Of a stretch of 40,084 nt of DNA, positions 15,850 through 24,436 are shown one piece after another. This DNA is from Corallococcus llansteffanensis (GTDB lineage: Bacteria > Myxococcota > Myxococcia > Myxococcales > Myxococcaceae), in contig NZ_RAWB01000016.1 of NCBI RefSeq assembly GCF_003612055.1, positions 1 to 40,084 on the forward strand, in the 5' to 3' direction. The notes beneath the pieces were generated by a model that made no database searches, had not been told where the DNA came from, and saw only the letters and a program-made list of their open reading frames with translations. Made by a program: the position numbers and the translations under genes. The stretch's first letter is position 1, and every line of letters begins with the position of its first letter.

Positions 15850-16452
15850 TCAGGCACATTGCTCAGCGGGTCCTCTATCGGGTGCCGTCACACGCTCGAA
15901 CGACACTCCAAGGTTCCCGACCCTTTCGAGTGCGTCCCTGACTTCCTCTGATACGACGAATGCCGTCTTGAATTTCTTCGGCCGCAAAACATGCGCGCCA
16001 TCAGCCTTCGAGGGATCAATACGCAGGCCGTAGATCCAGCGGTATTCGCCTGCATATTCGGGAAAGAGATCCTCTTCGGAGTAGTGCTGCACTTCTCGGC
16101 AATTCGCTTCATCAATGCAATCAGCCACCTTGGTTGCGTTGACGACGAAGTACCGCTCGGATTCCCCCTCTACCGATACCGGAAATAATTGAACATTGTC
16201 GGGAGCAAGTGTCCTGAAGACGATCGCGACCGCTTCACTGATGATGGGCACTTTCTCTATCACAGAGAACACAAACGTGCGCTTCTCACCAGGATGTGAA
16301 ATCTGGGACTTGATGGGGCCAGGGTCTGGAAGGACGCGACCCTCTCCGAACATCCAAGGCTCATCGAACGCGCCACCAGAGGCCGGTACAGGAGTCGTGA
16401 CGACCCACTGTGACACATCACCGGTTCTGACCCAGTAATAATGACGTTCCAC
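15850..16452 (-). CDS. Imm11-family (DUF1629-like) immunity protein, partner of the SitA-like toxin
   Basis: This 200-residue soluble protein looks like the myxobacterial imm11/DUF1629 family. ESERYFVVNATKVADCIDEA is followed by YRWIYGLRIDPSKADGAHVLRP and FVVSEEVRDALERVG, in the order seen in that family. The start is a GTG with AGGAGG 7 bases upstream, only 10 bases after the toxin stop, so toxin and immunity are one operon. GC content is clearly lower than around it (30 of 60 bases at 16081-16140 are G/C by hand count), which suggests horizontal transfer. It is expected to bind and block the toxin in kin cells. Family assignment is from memory of the motif pattern. Confidence 0.75.
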   Translation of the reverse strand: MERHYYWVRTGDVSQWVVTTPVPASGGAFDEPWMFGEGRVLPDPGPIKSQISHPGEKRTFVFSVIEKVPIISEAVAIVFRTLAPDNVQLFPVSVEGESERYFVVNATKVADCIDEANCREVQHYSEEDLFPEYAGEYRWIYGLRIDPSKADGAHVLRPKKFKTAFVVSEEVRDALERVGNLGVSFERVTAPDRGPAEQCA

Positions 16453-16462
16453 CGCACCCCTC

Positions 16463-17755
16463 CTACTTCACAATGAAACTTCGCAACGGCGAGCCCGGCG
16501 TAAGAAGCTCATTGGCAATCTTTGCAAGCTCATTCACCAACCTGGACCGACAAGTCTCAGTCGTCCGGCATCGCTCTACGGCACGTTCAAGACGCTCTAC
16601 CACCTCTCGATGGTATCGCTCGGGGTGAGGCCCTTCATGACCATTGAGGCGCACTTTGTTTACAACGTCTTCGAGGGTCATCCCGGCCTTCTTGAAGACG
16701 TCCTCGCATCTCGGTGTCCAAGGACCGCCGGTAACAGCGGAGAGGGTGTTCTTGTTCGTGCAGATGTGATGAACCGGCCCTTTGGCATCGCCCGGAAAGC
16801 GCCCGTCCGAGTACATCGCTACGGCGGCAGCAGCCCCTGGAGCTATCGCCACGTTCAGTACGCCAGCGGCGGGCAACGCGATTGAAGTCACGCCACCGTT
16901 CAGCGCTGCCCCGAGCTGGAAGCCGCCCTCGGCCTGCGCGCGAATGGCAGCCTGCGAGAAGCCCGGGAGCTTGGGGCCCTGGGCCGCCATCGCGTCCCTT
17001 CCACCAAGCGCTGCGGTGACGAGGAGCACCAGGACGCGCGTGCCGTTCGTCCCCAACACCCTGCCGAACCGGTGCCCGATGTCCTGTAGCTCGATGACGC
17101 TCATTGCCTTGCCCGCATCATCCCACAACCGGACGAAGCCTCGCCCCATCTCCCAGACCGGCACCACTCCGAGATAGGCCACCATCGCCGCCGTCAACGC
17201 CACCGCGATGGCCTTGGTGACCGGTTCGGGAAGGGCCATGGTGAGGAGAAGGGTCAGCGCGGCCGACGTGACCATGGCCTTGAGCGCGGCCGGGTTCAGC
17301 ATCTTGCCCACCTCGGCCTCGACGCTCTCCCACACGGTATCGAGAGCGAATGACAGGGCCATGAGTGTCCGGTCCTTGCGCGAGAACGTCAGCCCCGTCC
17401 CGCCCACCAGGGACAAGCATCCGTCCGGATCGGGGCAGATGCGCGCGTACAGCGACTCAGGTGAACTCCCCGAGCCAGGATCCGCGAGTCCTTTTGAGGA
17501 TGCGAGCAGGGTCCTGGATCGCACCCAGCCTCGCTCGTCCGCCTCTTCAGCCTCTCGGAATGCAACGTCCATCCGCATGTCGAGGATGAGCTGTGTGAGG
17601 GCAGCCTTGAACTCCGCCTCGTTCACCTCGACCGGATCAACGTCCACCGATTCATGGGTGACTTGCTGACCATTCCCAACATCTACATGGACAACGCGGG
17701 TGGTCGCACATCCCGCCGCAAGAAGCAGCAGGGAGACTACTGCAACTAACCTCAT
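16463..17755 (-). CDS. SitA-like polymorphic lipoprotein toxin with C-terminal AHH-type nuclease domain
   Basis: The 430-residue product has a lipoprotein signal (LLLLAAGC, Cys16). A long middle part (about 45-310) follows, with hydrophobic segments near 155-200 and 238-250 and the stretch AMAAQGPKLPGFSQAAIRAQ typical of SitA5-type toxins. The C-terminal 110 residues look like an AHH/HNH-type nuclease: HH at 329-330 and GHEGPHPERYH at 372-382. In Myxococcus xanthus, SitA lipoproteins move to neighbours by TraA/TraB-dependent outer-membrane exchange and kill cells lacking the matching immunity protein. The immunity gene follows directly. No sitB homologue is visible upstream. Confidence 0.78.
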   Translation of the reverse strand: MRLVAVVSLLLLAAGCATTRVVHVDVGNGQQVTHESVDVDPVEVNEAEFKAALTQLILDMRMDVAFREAEEADERGWVRSRTLLASSKGLADPGSGSSPESLYARICPDPDGCLSLVGGTGLTFSRKDRTLMALSFALDTVWESVEAEVGKMLNPAALKAMVTSAALTLLLTMALPEPVTKAIAVALTAAMVAYLGVVPVWEMGRGFVRLWDDAGKAMSVIELQDIGHRFGRVLGTNGTRVLVLLVTAALGGRDAMAAQGPKLPGFSQAAIRAQAEGGFQLGAALNGGVTSIALPAAGVLNVAIAPGAAAAVAMYSDGRFPGDAKGPVHHICTNKNTLSAVTGGPWTPRCEDVFKKAGMTLEDVVNKVRLNGHEGPHPERYHREVVERLERAVERCRTTETCRSRLVNELAKIANELLTPGSPLRSFIVK

Positions 17756-18319: not shown

Positions 18320-18397
18320 CGATTTGCCCCGCTCCGCCTTGCCGCCCAGGAGGGTTTCAACGACCATCGACGCCCTTTTTCCCGGAGGCGATGCATC

Positions 18398-18946
18398 TTG
18401 GAGCTGCGACACGGCCCCCTCACGGCGGGTGCATCGCCGGACGCCGGGCTCGAAACGCTGCGACGCGACCTGGGCCGGGCCCTGGCCAGCGTCTGCCCTC
18501 CGTCCCTCGCGGACCGGCGGGAGGACCTGTTGCAGGTCGCGATGATGCGGGTGGTGGAGCTGCGCAAGCGCGACCCGGGCCACGCGCAGATGTCTCCCGC
18601 GTACCTGTACCGCGTCGCCTACACGGCGCTCATCGACGAGCTGCGCCGGGTGAACGCACGCAAGGAGGTGGCGCTGGACGAGGTGGAGCGCGCGCCCGTG
18701 CAGCCCGTGGCACCCGGAGACCCGGAGCGTTCGGCCGGCGCCGCGCAGATCGCCCGCGCCGTGCGCGACTGTCTCCAGGGATTGGTTCAGGACCGTCGGC
18801 TGGCCGTGACGCTGCACCTGCAGGGACACACCGTTCCGGAGGCCGCGGAGCTGCTCGGCTGGGAGAGCAAGCGCACCGAGAACCTCATCTACCGCGGACT
18901 CAGCGCCCTGCGCGCGTGTCTCTCCACGAAGGGAATCACGCCGTGA
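18398..18946 (+). CDS. RNA polymerase sigma factor, ECF-like
   Basis: The protein has 182 residues from a TTG start at 18398, chosen because GGAGGCG lies about 8 bases upstream; no in-frame ATG precedes the conserved region. Region 2 is DLLQVAMMRVVELRKRD...YLYRVAYTALIDELRR, with the DELRR ending typical of sigma factors. Region 4 is a helix-turn-helix (PEAAELLGWESKRTENLIY). There is no region 3, so it belongs to the ECF/group IV type that recruits RNA polymerase to a small regulon. The stop overlaps the next gene's GTG by four bases, as is usual for a sigma/anti-sigma pair. Confidence 0.85.
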   Translation: MELRHGPLTAGASPDAGLETLRRDLGRALASVCPPSLADRREDLLQVAMMRVVELRKRDPGHAQMSPAYLYRVAYTALIDELRRVNARKEVALDEVERAPVQPVAPGDPERSAGAAQIARAVRDCLQGLVQDRRLAVTLHLQGHTVPEAAELLGWESKRTENLIYRGLSALRACLSTKGITP

Positions 18947-19650
18947 GCGAACGTCGCCCCGAGGATGACTCCATCGACGCCGCGGGGGTGGAGCGGCTGC
19001 GGACGGCGCTGCGCGACGACGACGCGCAGGCGGGGGCGCCGGTGGACGCGGACCTCGTCTGGCGCGCCGTGACGCAGGACCTTCCGGCCGAGGAGCGCCG
19101 GGCGGTCATCGAGCGTGTCGCGGCGGATCCGGCCTGGGCCCAGGCCTGGCGTCTGGCGAAGGCGATGTCCCAGGCGGCCTCGCAGGCGGACGCACCGGCG
19201 AAGGTGCTGTCGCTGAAGGACCGGCGCGAGCAGCGCCCCCGCTTCTGGCAGGAGCGCCCCGTGTGGGGTGCGATGGCGGCCATGCTGGTGGTCCTGGTGG
19301 GCGCGGTGGTGGTGGTGCGGCAGCAGCAGCAGGTGGATCCGGACCGGATCCGGGGCGGCGCGGCCGAGGCCATCACGTCGGAGGTGCCAGAGGCGACGGC
19401 GCTGCCTCGCGACCGCTTCGTGCTGCGCTGGAGCGGGGTGCCCCAGGCGACGCACTGGAGCGTGCAGGTGTCGTCGGAGGACTTGAAGCTGTTCCACCGC
19501 GCGGAGCGGCTGGAGCAGCGGGAATACACCGTGCCGGCCTCCGTGCTGGCGGAGCTGCCCGCGGGAACGCGGGTGCTCTGGCAGGTCGAAGCGCGGTTGC
19601 CGGATGGCAGCATCCGGCGCGGCAGCACGTTCGTGAACCGTTTGCAGTGA
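18943..19650 (+). CDS. Membrane protein, probable anti-sigma factor
   Basis: This 235-residue protein has a soluble cytoplasmic N-terminal half, a single membrane helix at about 106-124 (GAMAAMLVVLVGAVVVV), and a C-terminal extracytoplasmic domain that reads as a fibronectin-type beta sandwich (FVLRWSGVPQATHWSVQV). The topology and the GTGA overlap with the sigma gene fit an anti-sigma factor that senses the envelope, although no zinc-finger HxxxCxxC motif is seen. The role is therefore inferred from context. The start is GTG at 18943. Confidence 0.65.
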   Translation: MSERRPEDDSIDAAGVERLRTALRDDDAQAGAPVDADLVWRAVTQDLPAEERRAVIERVAADPAWAQAWRLAKAMSQAASQADAPAKVLSLKDRREQRPRFWQERPVWGAMAAMLVVLVGAVVVVRQQQQVDPDRIRGGAAEAITSEVPEATALPRDRFVLRWSGVPQATHWSVQVSSEDLKLFHRAERLEQREYTVPASVLAELPAGTRVLWQVEARLPDGSIRRGSTFVNRLQ

Positions 19651-19705
19651 GCGCGTGAAACCACGCGGTGGGCAGTCCATTCAAAGACATGCGGAGGGGG
19701 ATGTG

Positions 19706-20215
19706 ATGAAGACAAGCAATGCGGTGGGTGGCTGGGGACGTGCGTTGGCGGTGATGACGCTCCTGTGGGGACTCACGGCGGCGGCGCAGGTCTCACCGCC
19801 CATGCTGGTGATGACGACGGTGCCGGTGTCGGGTGTGGCGAGTGACCGGGTGATTGCCTCCGTGCTGGACGTGGGCGTGAGCCAGGGCGGTACGTTGACG
19901 GTGACGTTGCGCATCCTGGCGGCCAATGGCGCCGTGCTCGCGGAGATCACCGGCCCGGTGACCGAAGGGGTCCCCTTGCGCCTGAGCGCGAACGCGCCCT
20001 CGTCCGCCGGGGTCCGTGCGCAGCTCCTCGTGCCGCCCAACACCGAAGCGCTGGCCGCGGGCGTCCTGGTCCTGGAGCGGTTGCCCGGCGGCACGCGTCC
20101 GGTGGAGCCGCCCCCCCTCTGCAGAATTCCTCTCATCTACACCATCGACCCCAGGGGCGGCACGTCCGAGCCCACCACGTCGCTGTCCTGCTCGTACCTC
20201 TACATCCGGAGCTGA
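19706..20215 (+). CDS. Exported hypothetical protein in the sigma/CHAT operon
   Basis: This 169-residue protein has a signal peptide (ALAVMTLLWGLTAAAQ). The mature part is rich in beta strands and in V/T/G, with two Cys near the C terminus that could form a disulfide (LCRIPL and LSCSYL). AGGGGG is followed by the ATG at 19706; a longer start at 19655 would lack a signal. It lies 4 bases before the CHAT gene, so it is co-translated with it. The domain may be Ig-like, and it could be the ligand or cofactor of the CHAT protein. No family was recognised. Confidence 0.7.
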   Translation: MKTSNAVGGWGRALAVMTLLWGLTAAAQVSPPMLVMTTVPVSGVASDRVIASVLDVGVSQGGTLTVTLRILAANGAVLAEITGPVTEGVPLRLSANAPSSAGVRAQLLVPPNTEALAAGVLVLERLPGGTRPVEPPPLCRIPLIYTIDPRGGTSEPTTSLSCSYLYIRS

Positions 20216-20219
20216 CACG

Positions 20220-23150
20220 GTGGCGGGTGGGCGACGGCGCCTGGCGTGGCTGGGATGGCTCCTCCTCGCGGTGGGGCTCCTCCCGCACGCCCTCGCGGTC
20301 GCCGCCGAACCTCCGGAGCCTCCGGAGCCCTCCGCGCTCGCCCGGTGCGAGGAGGGCTTCGTCGCCCATCCGGCGGGTTCGGAGACGGCGCTGTGTTTCT
20401 TCCGGGAGGCCCAGGACCTGGGGCGCCGCGACGAGGCCCGGCGCAGGCTGCGGGGCCTCATCGCGAGCCACCCCGAGCGCCCCTGGCTCCTGCTGGTCCT
20501 GGGCTACGTGGAGATGCTCTCCGAGCCACGGCTGGCGGAGGACTCCTATCGTCGCGCGGCCCTCGCGTTCCGGAAGCAGGGGGACGCGGAGGGCGAGGTG
20601 ATGGCGGGCATCAACCTGCGCAACGTGCTGGGCGTGCTGGGCCGGACGGAGGAGGCGCACACCTGGGTCCAGCGGGTGGGGGAGGTGGCGCGGGCCTCCG
20701 GTGACGCCCAGCTCCAGGTGCGTGCGCTCATCCTGGAGGCCTCCGAGCTCTCCGACCTGGGACAGGACCTGGGGCGCGCCTATCGCCTCCTCAAGCGCGC
20801 GGAGGCGCTCGCCTTCCCCGGGGGCAGCGACAGCGTGAAGAAGCAGCTGCTGAACCCCCTGGCCACCGTGAGCGCGAACCTGGGGCACTTCGACGAGGCG
20901 CAGGATGCCTATGCGCGGCTCGCGGAGCTCGCGCGGAGCACCCGCGACGTGGGCACCGAGGCCCGGGTGCGCTTCGCCTTCGCGAACCTCGCGCTCCGGC
21001 GCAACGAGGAGCGTCCCGAACCGGGAGGCCGTCCGGCGCTGCTGCGCCTCGCCCGGGAAGCGCTCGCGGCGGCGAGGAAGGCGGGGAGCAAGGCCTTCGA
21101 AGCGCAGTCCCTGCGCATGGTGGCGGAGCTGCTGGGGGACAGCCCGGAGGAGCGGAGCGAGGCGGACGAACACCTGCGGCGCTGTCTGGACCTGGCCCTG
21201 GAGGCGAAGCTGCCCGAGCGGCGCATCGCCTGTCTGTGGACGCGCGCGGAGCGGCTCGCGGGGGTGGATGCCATTGCCGCCGAGCGTGACGCGGACGCGG
21301 CCCTGGCGCTGGCCGCCGAGCACGACAACCCGCGCTACCTCGCCTCCGCGTGGCGGGCGCGCTCGATGGTGGCCTTCCGCACGCGGCCCCTGCCGGAAGC
21401 CCTGCGACAGGCGGAGCGCGCGTTGGACGCGGTGGAGGTGCTGCGCCAGTTGCAGAAGGACGCGTCCAGCCAGGCGGAGCTGTTCTCCGGCTGGGCCAAT
21501 GACTATCACCGGCTCGCCGGGCGCACGCTGGAGGCCGGGGAGACCTCCGCCCTGCCGCCCCGCGAGGCCCTGGAGCGCGCCTTCGCGGTGAGCGAGCGCC
21601 TGCGGGCGAGGACGCTGTTCGAAGCGCTCGTCGCCTCCCGCGCGCTCGCAGTCGGCGCGGACGCACCGGAGCGCGGAGAGGAGCGGGCCCGCGTGCTGCG
21701 CGGCCTGTCCGCCACGCAGCGGAGGCTGCTGGAGACCACGCTGCCCGCGTCCGAGCGCACGCGCCTGTTGGGTGAACTCCAGGAGCTGGAGCGGCGGGAG
21801 CGCGAGCTGCGTCCGGCGCCCCGGCACGACGCCGTCCAGTTCGCCTCGCTTTCGCGGACCGAGGAGGGCCTGGGGGAAGACGAAGCGCTGCTCGTGTTCC
21901 TCGTGGGCATGGACCACGACCTCCAGGGTGAGCGCGCGGGAGGCGCGTGGGTGCTGGCGGTGACGCGCGGGGGGACGCGCGCGTACCGCATCCCGGAGCG
22001 TGCGCGGCTGAGCCCCGCCGTGGCGCTCCTGTCGGGGCTCATCGAGCGTCGGGATGGTTCGGAGGCCGGGGCCGCCGCCGCGCTGTACGCACAGCTCCTG
22101 GCGCCGGTGCTGCGGGAGCTTCCGCCGAGCGTGTCGCGCCTGCTGCTCGTGCCGGATGGGCCGCTGCATGACCTGGCCTTCGCGGCGCTGCGCGAGCGCG
22201 CGGACGGGCCTCCGTTGATCTCCCGCTACGCGCTCGCGCGGGTGCCCTCCGCGAGCCTGCTGCACCACTGGCGGGAGCGGTCGGAGCCGCCACCGGCGGG
22301 CGAGGCCCTGGTGCTGGCGGATCCCGACCGCAGTGGCGCCCCGGCGGGCACGACGGTGGTGGCCTCATCGCGAGGCGGTGTGTTCGGGGAGACCGCGAGC
22401 CTGGGCGCGCTCCCCGAGGCGAGGCGTGAAGGGCGCACCGTGGAGGAGGCCCTGGAGGGCACCGACGTGCGGCCCCGGCTGCTGGTGGGGACGGAGGCGT
22501 CGGAGCAGGCGCTGAAGGACTCCCGGTTGGACGGCGTGCGCATCCTCCACCTGGCCGCGCATGCCGTCGTCGACGTCGAGGCGCCCGAGCGCTCCGCCCT
22601 GGTGCTGGCCCCGGGCTCCCCGCAGGAGGACGGCCTCCTCCAGCCCCGGGAGATCGCCGAGCTGCGGCTGCGGGACGCGCTGGTGGTGCTCTCCAGTTGT
22701 CGGGGCGCGTCCGGCGCGCTGCTCGCGGGCGAAGGGGTGTTGAGCCTCGCGAGGGCCTTCTTCGAGTCCGGCGCGCACGCCGTGGTGGCGAGCCTGTGGC
22801 CGATGCGCGACGCCGAGGCCGCGTGGCTGCTGGAGCGCTATTACAGACATCTGGCTTCAGGGCAGGGGGTGGCCTCCGCCCTGCGCTCCGCCCAGCTCGA
22901 GGCGCAGCAGGATGGCCAGCCCGCGGCGGCGTGGGCAGGGGTGGTGGTGATGGGGGATGCCGCGCTGGTGCCCGTGCGGCGGGCCGGCACCGCGGCGGTG
23001 GGAGTCCCGGGGCAGGGCGCAACCTGGGCCCTGGCCTTGCTGGTCTGTGTTCTCGTCGTGGCCATCGGCGGGGGTTGGTGGCGCCGGTCGAAGCGGGCCG
23101 CGCCCGCCTGGCCGCCGGAGGATCGAGGAGAAGGGCGAAGGGGTGGGTAG
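20220..23150 (+). CDS. TPR-CHAT caspase-like protease with membrane segments at both ends
   Basis: This 976-residue protein opens with a hydrophobic segment (WLGWLLLAVGLLPHALAVAA), either a signal or an anchor. Residues of about 40-480 are helical TPR-type repeats. The CHAT (caspase HetF associated with TPRs) domain spans about 560-920 and keeps the catalytic pair: His781 in HLAAHAVVD and Cys827 in VVLSSCRGASG. A last membrane helix (TWALALLVCVLVVAIGGG) is followed by a basic tail. CHAT proteins are caspase-related proteases that act in defence and cell-fate pathways (TPR-CHAT of type III-E CRISPR, HetF). Here it sits behind a sigma/anti-sigma pair, so a target in that pathway is a fair inference. 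The start is GTG 20220. Confidence 0.87.
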   Translation: MAGGRRRLAWLGWLLLAVGLLPHALAVAAEPPEPPEPSALARCEEGFVAHPAGSETALCFFREAQDLGRRDEARRRLRGLIASHPERPWLLLVLGYVEMLSEPRLAEDSYRRAALAFRKQGDAEGEVMAGINLRNVLGVLGRTEEAHTWVQRVGEVARASGDAQLQVRALILEASELSDLGQDLGRAYRLLKRAEALAFPGGSDSVKKQLLNPLATVSANLGHFDEAQDAYARLAELARSTRDVGTEARVRFAFANLALRRNEERPEPGGRPALLRLAREALAAARKAGSKAFEAQSLRMVAELLGDSPEERSEADEHLRRCLDLALEAKLPERRIACLWTRAERLAGVDAIAAERDADAALALAAEHDNPRYLASAWRARSMVAFRTRPLPEALRQAERALDAVEVLRQLQKDASSQAELFSGWANDYHRLAGRTLEAGETSALPPREALERAFAVSERLRARTLFEALVASRALAVGADAPERGEERARVLRGLSATQRRLLETTLPASERTRLLGELQELERRERELRPAPRHDAVQFASLSRTEEGLGEDEALLVFLVGMDHDLQGERAGGAWVLAVTRGGTRAYRIPERARLSPAVALLSGLIERRDGSEAGAAAALYAQLLAPVLRELPPSVSRLLLVPDGPLHDLAFAALRERADGPPLISRYALARVPSASLLHHWRERSEPPPAGEALVLADPDRSGAPAGTTVVASSRGGVFGETASLGALPEARREGRTVEEALEGTDVRPRLLVGTEASEQALKDSRLDGVRILHLAAHAVVDVEAPERSALVLAPGSPQEDGLLQPREIAELRLRDALVVLSSCRGASGALLAGEGVLSLARAFFESGAHAVVASLWPMRDAEAAWLLERYYRHLASGQGVASALRSAQLEAQQDGQPAAAWAGVVVMGDAALVPVRRAGTAAVGVPGQGATWALALLVCVLVVAIGGGWWRRSKRAAPAWPPEDRGEGRRGG

Positions 23151-23182
23151 CCCCTGGTGCTCCGCATCGCCACCCTTGCTGC

Positions 23183-24436
23183 GTGAGCGCGCTGGAGCCG
23201 GAGAATGAGAGCAACCCACGGGAGGATCCACGGTTGCAGGCCCTGGAGAGCCTGCTGGCCCTTCCCGCGGCCGAGCTGCGGCCCACGCTGAACACGGCGG
23301 GCCAGCTCATCTCGGAGCTGCTGCACGCCGACAAGGTGGATGTCTTCCTCATCGAGATGAGCACCCAGTGCCTCGTCGCCTTCGGGACGAGCGACACGCC
23401 CATGGCGCGGTTGCAGAAGGCGCTGGGTCTGGACCGGATGCCGCTCGCCAACGGAGGGCGCGCCGTGCAGGTGTATGAAACGGACACGCCCTTCATCACG
23501 GGCCGCCAGGAGGAGGATCCGGAGGAGCTTCCCGGCATCAAGCACCGGCTGGGGGTGCGCTCCTCCCTGATGGTGCCGTTGCCCATCGGCCAGGAGACCC
23601 GTGGCGTGTTGGGCGTGTCGTCGGCGAAGAACGACTTCTTCACCCGGGACGACCTGCGCTTCCTGGTGGCCGTGGCGCGTTGGGTGGGCATGGTGGCCCA
23701 CCGGGTGGAGCTGTCGCAGGAGCTGATGAAGCTGGCCGTGAAGCAGGCGCGCCGCGCGGCGGCCGAGGAGCTCATCACGGTGCTGGCCCACGACATGGCC
23801 AACTACCTGCTGCCGCTCCAGGCCCGCATCCAGCTCATCCAGCGGAGGGCCGCGCGCAAGCAGGACCTGGAGGACCTGCGGGACGCGGACGGCGCGGCCT
23901 CCTCGCTGCGCTCGCTCACCCGGCTCATCCAGGATCTGCTGGACGTGGGGCGCCTGGACCAGGGGCTCTTCACCCTGCGGCCGCAGCCGGTGGACGTGGC
24001 GGCGCTCGCGCGAGAGGTGACCACCACCGCGAACACCCCCGGCCATCCGGTGGAGTACCGCGGGCCGGAGGAGCTGGTGATGATCGCGGATCCGGAGCGC
24101 CTGCGTCAGGTGCTGGAGAACCTGGTGGCGAACGCGCTGAAGCACTGCCCGGAGGGGCTGCCGGTGGGCATCGACGTGCAGTCGCAGAACCGCCCGGAGG
24201 GGCTGTGGGTGCGCCTCGCGGTGACCGACCAGGGGCCGGGAATCCCCGCCGAGCAGCTGCCCACGCTCTTCGAGCGCTTCGCGAAGGGGCCCGGCTCCAC
24301 GGGGCTGGGAATCGGCCTGTACCTCGCGAGGCGCCTCGCGGAGGCGCATGGCGGCACCCTGGAGGTGACCTCCAAACCCGGGGACGGCACGCGCTTCGAG
24401 ATCGCGCTGCCGGAAGCACCGCCGTCCACCGGGTAG
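23183..24436 (+). CDS. GAF-domain sensor histidine kinase
   Basis: This 417-residue soluble protein has a GAF-type domain at about 20-165 and a HisKA region whose phosphoacceptor is His203 in LAHDMANYLLPL. The HATPase_c domain has N box LENLVANALKH, G1 box DQGPGIP, F box LFERF and G2 box GLGIGLYLARR. No membrane span or receiver domain is present. The start is GTG 23183, 32 bases after the CHAT stop, with a weak ribosome binding site. It appears to be the last full gene of the sigma/CHAT operon. The partner response regulator is not in this window. Confidence 0.87.
   Translation: MSALEPENESNPREDPRLQALESLLALPAAELRPTLNTAGQLISELLHADKVDVFLIEMSTQCLVAFGTSDTPMARLQKALGLDRMPLANGGRAVQVYETDTPFITGRQEEDPEELPGIKHRLGVRSSLMVPLPIGQETRGVLGVSSAKNDFFTRDDLRFLVAVARWVGMVAHRVELSQELMKLAVKQARRAAAEELITVLAHDMANYLLPLQARIQLIQRRAARKQDLEDLRDADGAASSLRSLTRLIQDLLDVGRLDQGLFTLRPQPVDVAALAREVTTTANTPGHPVEYRGPEELVMIADPERLRQVLENLVANALKHCPEGLPVGIDVQSQNRPEGLWVRLAVTDQGPGIPAEQLPTLFERFAKGPGSTGLGIGLYLARRLAEAHGGTLEVTSKPGDGTRFEIALPEAPPSTG

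Follow-up and report, generated by a model that had tools for sequence, protein, structure and literature searches.

A conserved sigma, anti-sigma, exported-protein and TPR-CHAT gene unit of Corallococcus as a candidate regulated-proteolysis circuit

The window, meaning the whole stretch of DNA that was analysed, comprises 40,084 nucleotides of the 10.5 Mb genome of Corallococcus llansteffanensis. It has five open reading frames on the + strand between positions 18398 and 24436, which encode a sigma factor, a membrane anti-sigma factor, a small exported protein, a TPR-CHAT protein and a GAF histidine kinase. A check of the open reading frames confirmed the positions claimed for them in the first-pass annotation. 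The spacings given there also hold, with a 4-bp overlap between the sigma and anti-sigma genes, a 4-bp gap before the CHAT gene and a 32-bp gap before the kinase gene.

The histidine kinase (23183..24436, +; Pfam GAF and HATPase_c) is judged to be a neighbour that lies outside the unit. It is found 3' of the CHAT gene in G000, G005, G007, G013 and G015, 5' of the sigma gene in G001, G003, G008, G010, G011 and G012, and about 9 kb away in G009, where it is displaced further downstream. Among the 16 Corallococcus species it was not found in G002, G004 and G006, which carry the unit, and it is present in G014, which does not. Since neither its location nor its occurrence follows that of the unit, the kinase is ruled out as a fifth member. 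The five-gene unit of the first-pass annotation is therefore reduced to four genes (sigma, anti-sigma, exported protein and CHAT), which do keep their order. On the other side of the unit (15850-17755, -) are genes for a lipoprotein-like protein with a C-terminal AHH nuclease domain (PF14412, E 1e-22) and then for Imm11 (PF07791), which are likely an interbacterial toxin-immunity pair. A Ser/Thr protein kinase gene (PF00069; 24557-25750, -) is convergent with the histidine kinase and is kept beside the unit in G002 and G005.

The sigma gene (18398..18946, +) has a TTG start and encodes 182 residues. The protein matches PF04542 (Sigma70_r2) with 26.7 bits (cut-off 24), PF08281 (Sigma70_r4_2) with 30.0 bits (cut-off 25.7) and the sigma70-ECF model TIGR02937 with 53.9 bits (cut-off 42.9). 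As is characteristic of an ECF-type sigma factor, it contains sigma-70 regions 2 and 4 only.

The second gene (18943..19650, +) encodes a protein of 235 residues. No Pfam family fits this protein, and a search against PDB sequences returned nothing useful, with one chance-level match only. The AF2 model has four helices in an N-terminal domain (13-82), a transmembrane helix at about 108-126, a low-confidence stretch (125-139) within a disordered linker (125-145) and a confident domain (160-234) whose best structural matches in Foldseek are FN3 modules. A single hydrophobic segment is present in all 43 family members examined. Five distant homologues (L131, L132, L133, L048 and L129) have HxxxCxxC at the aligned position, and one distant homologue exceeds the cut-off of PF13490 (zf-HC2). 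The motif is absent from the Corallococcus and g37 proteins, in which the gene pairing with sigma is retained. Because of the HxxxCxxC and zf-HC2 matches of the homologues, the N-terminal domain is assigned by homology to the zinc type of anti-sigma domain, with the metal ligands lost in Corallococcus and g37. The helical N-terminal domain, the single transmembrane helix and the gene overlapping that of sigma are those of a class I membrane ZAS-type factor, so the earlier description of a membrane anti-sigma-like protein stands.

The linker of the anti-sigma factor contains a candidate cleavage site at Arg137-Gly138 (19351..19356, +). The arginine is invariant in 29 of 29 homologues and is followed by glycine in 27 of them. 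Mean column identity in the linker is 48% and the length before the arginine varies from 5 to 15 residues; the alignment of these 29 relatives has only nine invariant columns, and Arg137 is one of them. The residue is a candidate for the site of a CHAT cut, or it could serve in assembly or orientation.

The third gene (19706..20215, +) encodes a small exported protein of 169 residues with a signal peptide. The ATG at 19706 is most likely the start, rather than the GTG at 19655, because the residues upstream are not conserved and a putative ribosome site, GGAGGGGG, lies ahead of the ATG. The AF2 model has strands at 34-126 in a predicted beta-sandwich, and a fold search gave only weak beta-sandwich likenesses, none at E <= 0.001. 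The protein is conserved in Corallococcus, g27, g37 and g25 and is the fastest-evolving member of the unit (30-76% identity).

The fourth gene (20220..23150, +) encodes a protein of 976 residues with an N-terminal signal sequence, TPR-like repeats (weakly detected by Pfam), a CHAT domain at 619-913 (PF12770, 203 bits, E 7.9e-60) and a C-terminal transmembrane segment at about 933-951 followed by basic residues. The His781/Cys827 pair named in the first-pass annotation is exact; the predicted catalytic His781 (22560..22562, +) and Cys827 (22698..22700, +) are invariant in 16 of 16 aligned CHAT proteins, and in an alignment with Csx29 they fall on its His and Cys. The hydrophobic segments noted at both ends are also present in most relatives. 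The TPR and CHAT parts are predicted to lie in the periplasm, as are the linker and FN3-like domain of the anti-sigma factor. Since the CHAT protein has a signal sequence and a transmembrane segment and the anti-sigma factor has a single one, protease and linker would meet in the periplasm, where CHAT may be active. Asp646 and Asp864, putative equivalents of separase pocket residues, are nearly invariant in the CHAT proteins of the unit. They support a preference for Arg, although many other CHAT proteins share them and they are thus not specific to this family.

The host genome has 18 CHAT matches, and four of them outscore the window protein on the CHAT-family score. No convincing sigma gene adjoins any of the other CHAT loci, which were rejected as parallel sigma-CHAT units. 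The CHAT genes of L039 and L045 at first seemed to carry premature stops; these were dismissed as well, being only a natural end that comes earlier, after the transmembrane segment. Close CHAT relatives occur at L146-L149; L149 has an exported lipoprotein-like ORF ahead, and L146 has changed residues at columns of the catalytic region. G009 has a truncated extra CHAT fragment (L041 13151-13510, +), a frame of 145 aa, about 4 kb downstream of its intact unit.

The order sigma, anti-sigma, exported protein and CHAT is kept in 15 of the 16 Corallococcus species, the units of G004 and G005 being split across contigs. In the sixteenth species, G014, a search with three proteins of the unit found none of them. 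Identical four-gene order is also present in g27, g37 (probably Myxococcus) and g25, and outside Corallococcus the order runs through two further genera of the Myxococcaceae and recurs in a single species of another genus and in a distant family. In that distant family (G053), sigma and anti-sigma are followed by an exported ORF without recognisable similarity and then by CHAT. Sigma, anti-sigma and CHAT abut in G042, and the sigma-anti-sigma pair of g7 adjoins CHAT in divergent orientation; no homologue of the exported protein was recognisable at the G042 locus or near the g7 loci. The anti-sigma gene abuts or overlaps the sigma gene in nearly all units compared. An arrangement kept over such distances, even where sequence identity falls to about 30%, is not a product of chance. 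Matches to the CHAT gene at 78-92% identity came from Corallococcus genomes and one Myxococcaceae MAG, and a plasmid search gave only CHAT-domain matches of 26-36% and zero anti-sigma matches.

A promoter-like motif, CTTGC-N12-TTTCAACGACCAT, is located at 18338..18367 (+), 30 nt 5' of the sigma start. The wider pattern CTTGC-N12..15-TTTCRANNACCAT, derived from the sigma upstream regions themselves, lies about 30 nt ahead of sigma and is common to otherwise diverged upstream regions of Corallococcus and Myxococcus-type genomes. The only match in the host genome is the site before sigma. The Corallococcus form of the pattern has one match each in 10 of the 16 Corallococcus genomes, always before sigma, and several species retain the downstream half only. 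Among the 26 g37 genomes, 15 of 16 matches sit before sigma. The joint pattern has 23 matches in 96 Myxococcaceae genomes, of which 21 precede the sigma gene of the unit, one precedes an exported-protein/CHAT pair in G122 and one is a stray in G108; 22 of the 23 are thus at such units, counting the sigma-less pair. The reversed control pattern has no match in the same 96 genomes. The motif is not recognisable at the distant loci of g7, G042 and G053. On the simplest reading, the motif would be the promoter of sigma and the operon its main target, and the sigma factor itself may recognise the motif. Since gene order is conserved across the family and beyond and a private promoter motif is shared, the functional link between sigma, anti-sigma and CHAT that was proposed earlier is strongly supported by the comparison of genomes.

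The pair in G122 (L145 7441-10999, -) is a second exported-protein/CHAT pair in which the motif is kept and no sigma or anti-sigma gene adjoins. A weight matrix built from the sigma upstream sites only gives its site 29.1 bits, and the next-best separate site in L145 reaches 13.6. Its CHAT protein is 93% identical to that of the G142 unit and the two are sisters in the tree; therefore, the pair is probably a full unit that has lost sigma and anti-sigma, with promoter, exported protein and CHAT intact.

The reading we prefer, to which we give a little under an even chance, is a self-contained, autoregulated ECF circuit in which periplasmic CHAT cuts the anti-sigma linker and produces positive feedback. 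In the resting state, sigma would be kept at the inner membrane by the N-terminal domain of its anti-sigma factor. The trigger may be an envelope signal, sensed perhaps by the secreted beta-sandwich protein, by the TPR repeats or by the FN3-like domain of the anti-sigma factor. The membrane-anchored TPR-CHAT protein would then cut the linker after Arg137, and sigma would be freed by general intramembrane and cytosolic proteolysis. Freed sigma would activate its own promoter and yield more of all four proteins, giving a positive-feedback switch. It is plausible, as the first-pass annotation had proposed, that CHAT cleaves the anti-sigma factor. Csx29 is a precedent for a CHAT protease cleaving an anti-sigma factor (PMC10028731), and the clan CD relative separase cleaves unstructured stretches on the C-terminal side of Arg, with the help of a conserved acidic pocket residue (PMC10317155). 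Cleavage after Arg137 is the most specific testable model because of the shared predicted periplasmic side, the invariant linker Arg, the Arg cleavage by separase and the acids of CHAT. It is a tentative proposal, with a fair amount of doubt attached, that membrane-anchored periplasmic TPR-CHAT is an operon-encoded site-1 protease that cuts after this Arg, as an outward-facing, CRISPR-independent counterpart of Craspase.

The main rival to the cleavage model, a possible reading of which we are doubtful, is that the exported protein and TPR-CHAT are only outputs of the circuit. Ordinary site-1/site-2 proteolysis or unfolding of the anti-sigma factor would then free sigma, and CHAT would act on other envelope or foreign targets. 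The G122 pair retains the motif without sigma and anti-sigma, like a regulon member; however, it is weak as independent evidence since it looks like a full unit after the loss of these two genes. Related CHAT proteins also occur alone (L146-L149 and L047 are without the sigma of the unit), and there are almost no other motif sites, which makes the operon the apparent main target. These observations fit an output, but an output role leaves unexplained both the invariant Arg of the anti-sigma linker and the genes staying together over large distances.

It is unlikely that CHAT mainly processes the exported protein, or is activated or inhibited by it, with sigma setting the dose only. Such a relation would suit the persistence of the pairing after sigma loss at L145 and the rapid evolution of the exported protein, as a sensor, substrate or inhibitor would be expected to show; however, the G042 and g7 loci have no recognisable exported-protein homologue. 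The first suggestion, that the histidine kinase belongs to a five-gene unit for cell death or phage defence, is very improbable. CHAT proteases are known in defence and CRISPR systems, and PADLOC gives matches (BovA, TPR, PD-T4-6), but these matches are weak and partial. The kinase is uncoupled from the unit, and near-universal presence in Corallococcus with no close plasmid match is unlike mobile defence islands. No pointer to a role in phage defence or cell death was found.

CHAT proteins abound in large bacterial genomes and, to our knowledge, few have a known substrate. The comparisons made here suggest which substrate, and which site in it, one conserved CHAT family is likely to cut. The private promoter offers a simple reporter, and as g37 carriers look like Myxococcus, there may be laboratory strains that are easy to work with. 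If the preferred circuit is true, anti-sigma cleavage by CHAT, as in Craspase, would belong to a signalling theme that extends beyond CRISPR, and the circuit could illustrate how a relative of caspases in bacteria turns genes on by cleavage of an inhibitor.

The literature searched contained no dedicated membrane-anchored CHAT-sigma version outside CRISPR and nothing joining Myxococcus with "CHAT domain". The initial statement that no such system had been described was nevertheless too strong, since Craspase (PMC10028731) and ECF54 loci with CHAT genes (PMC8999054) are known. Protease-regulated anti-sigma factors are likewise known, and links between CHAT and sigma factors are known from these two systems. 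The type III-E CRISPR system Craspase/DiCASP consists of Cas7-11, the TPR-CHAT protein Csx29, the anti-sigma factor Csx30 and CASP-sigma, and sigma is set free there once Csx30 is cleaved (PMC10028731). The unit resembles it in a TPR-CHAT protein with a His/Cys dyad encoded alongside an ECF sigma factor and its inhibitor. However, Csx29 works in complex with an RNA-guided effector and has His and Ser or Asn in place of the acids at the Asp646/Asp864 positions, whereas the CHAT protein of the unit bears a signal sequence and a transmembrane segment and its anti-sigma factor spans the membrane and has an FN3-like domain. None of the five proteins of the window matched a CRISPR family in Pfam, NCBIfam or PADLOC; with no CRISPR parts and no Cas7-11/gRAMP effector or Csx30, the unit was rejected as a Craspase. 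The ECF54 loci also have an ECF sigma factor with CHAT or other protease genes nearby, but they are described as without an anti-sigma factor (PMC8999054), which sets apart the unit, where such a gene adjoins sigma. The parts of the HetF paper drawn on here (PMC8406250) describe a membrane-associated CHAT/TPR regulator of heterocysts and division in Anabaena, similar in its regulatory role; the CHAT part is at the N terminus with one transmembrane segment, and those parts mention no sigma/anti-sigma partner.

RseA/DegS is the classical model of regulated proteolysis. The unit shares with RpoE-RseA-DegS an ECF sigma factor, a single-pass anti-sigma factor, a predicted periplasmic protease and probable autoregulation. 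It differs in that its protease is a caspase-like CHAT protein of the same operon rather than an unlinked PDZ serine protease, in the additional exported protein, and in the loss of the zinc ligands from the Corallococcus anti-sigma factor. By analogy, the unit looks like a blend of the Craspase, ECF54 and RseA/DegS systems, and it is a real, well-conserved unit and a candidate variant of regulated-proteolysis sigma signalling.
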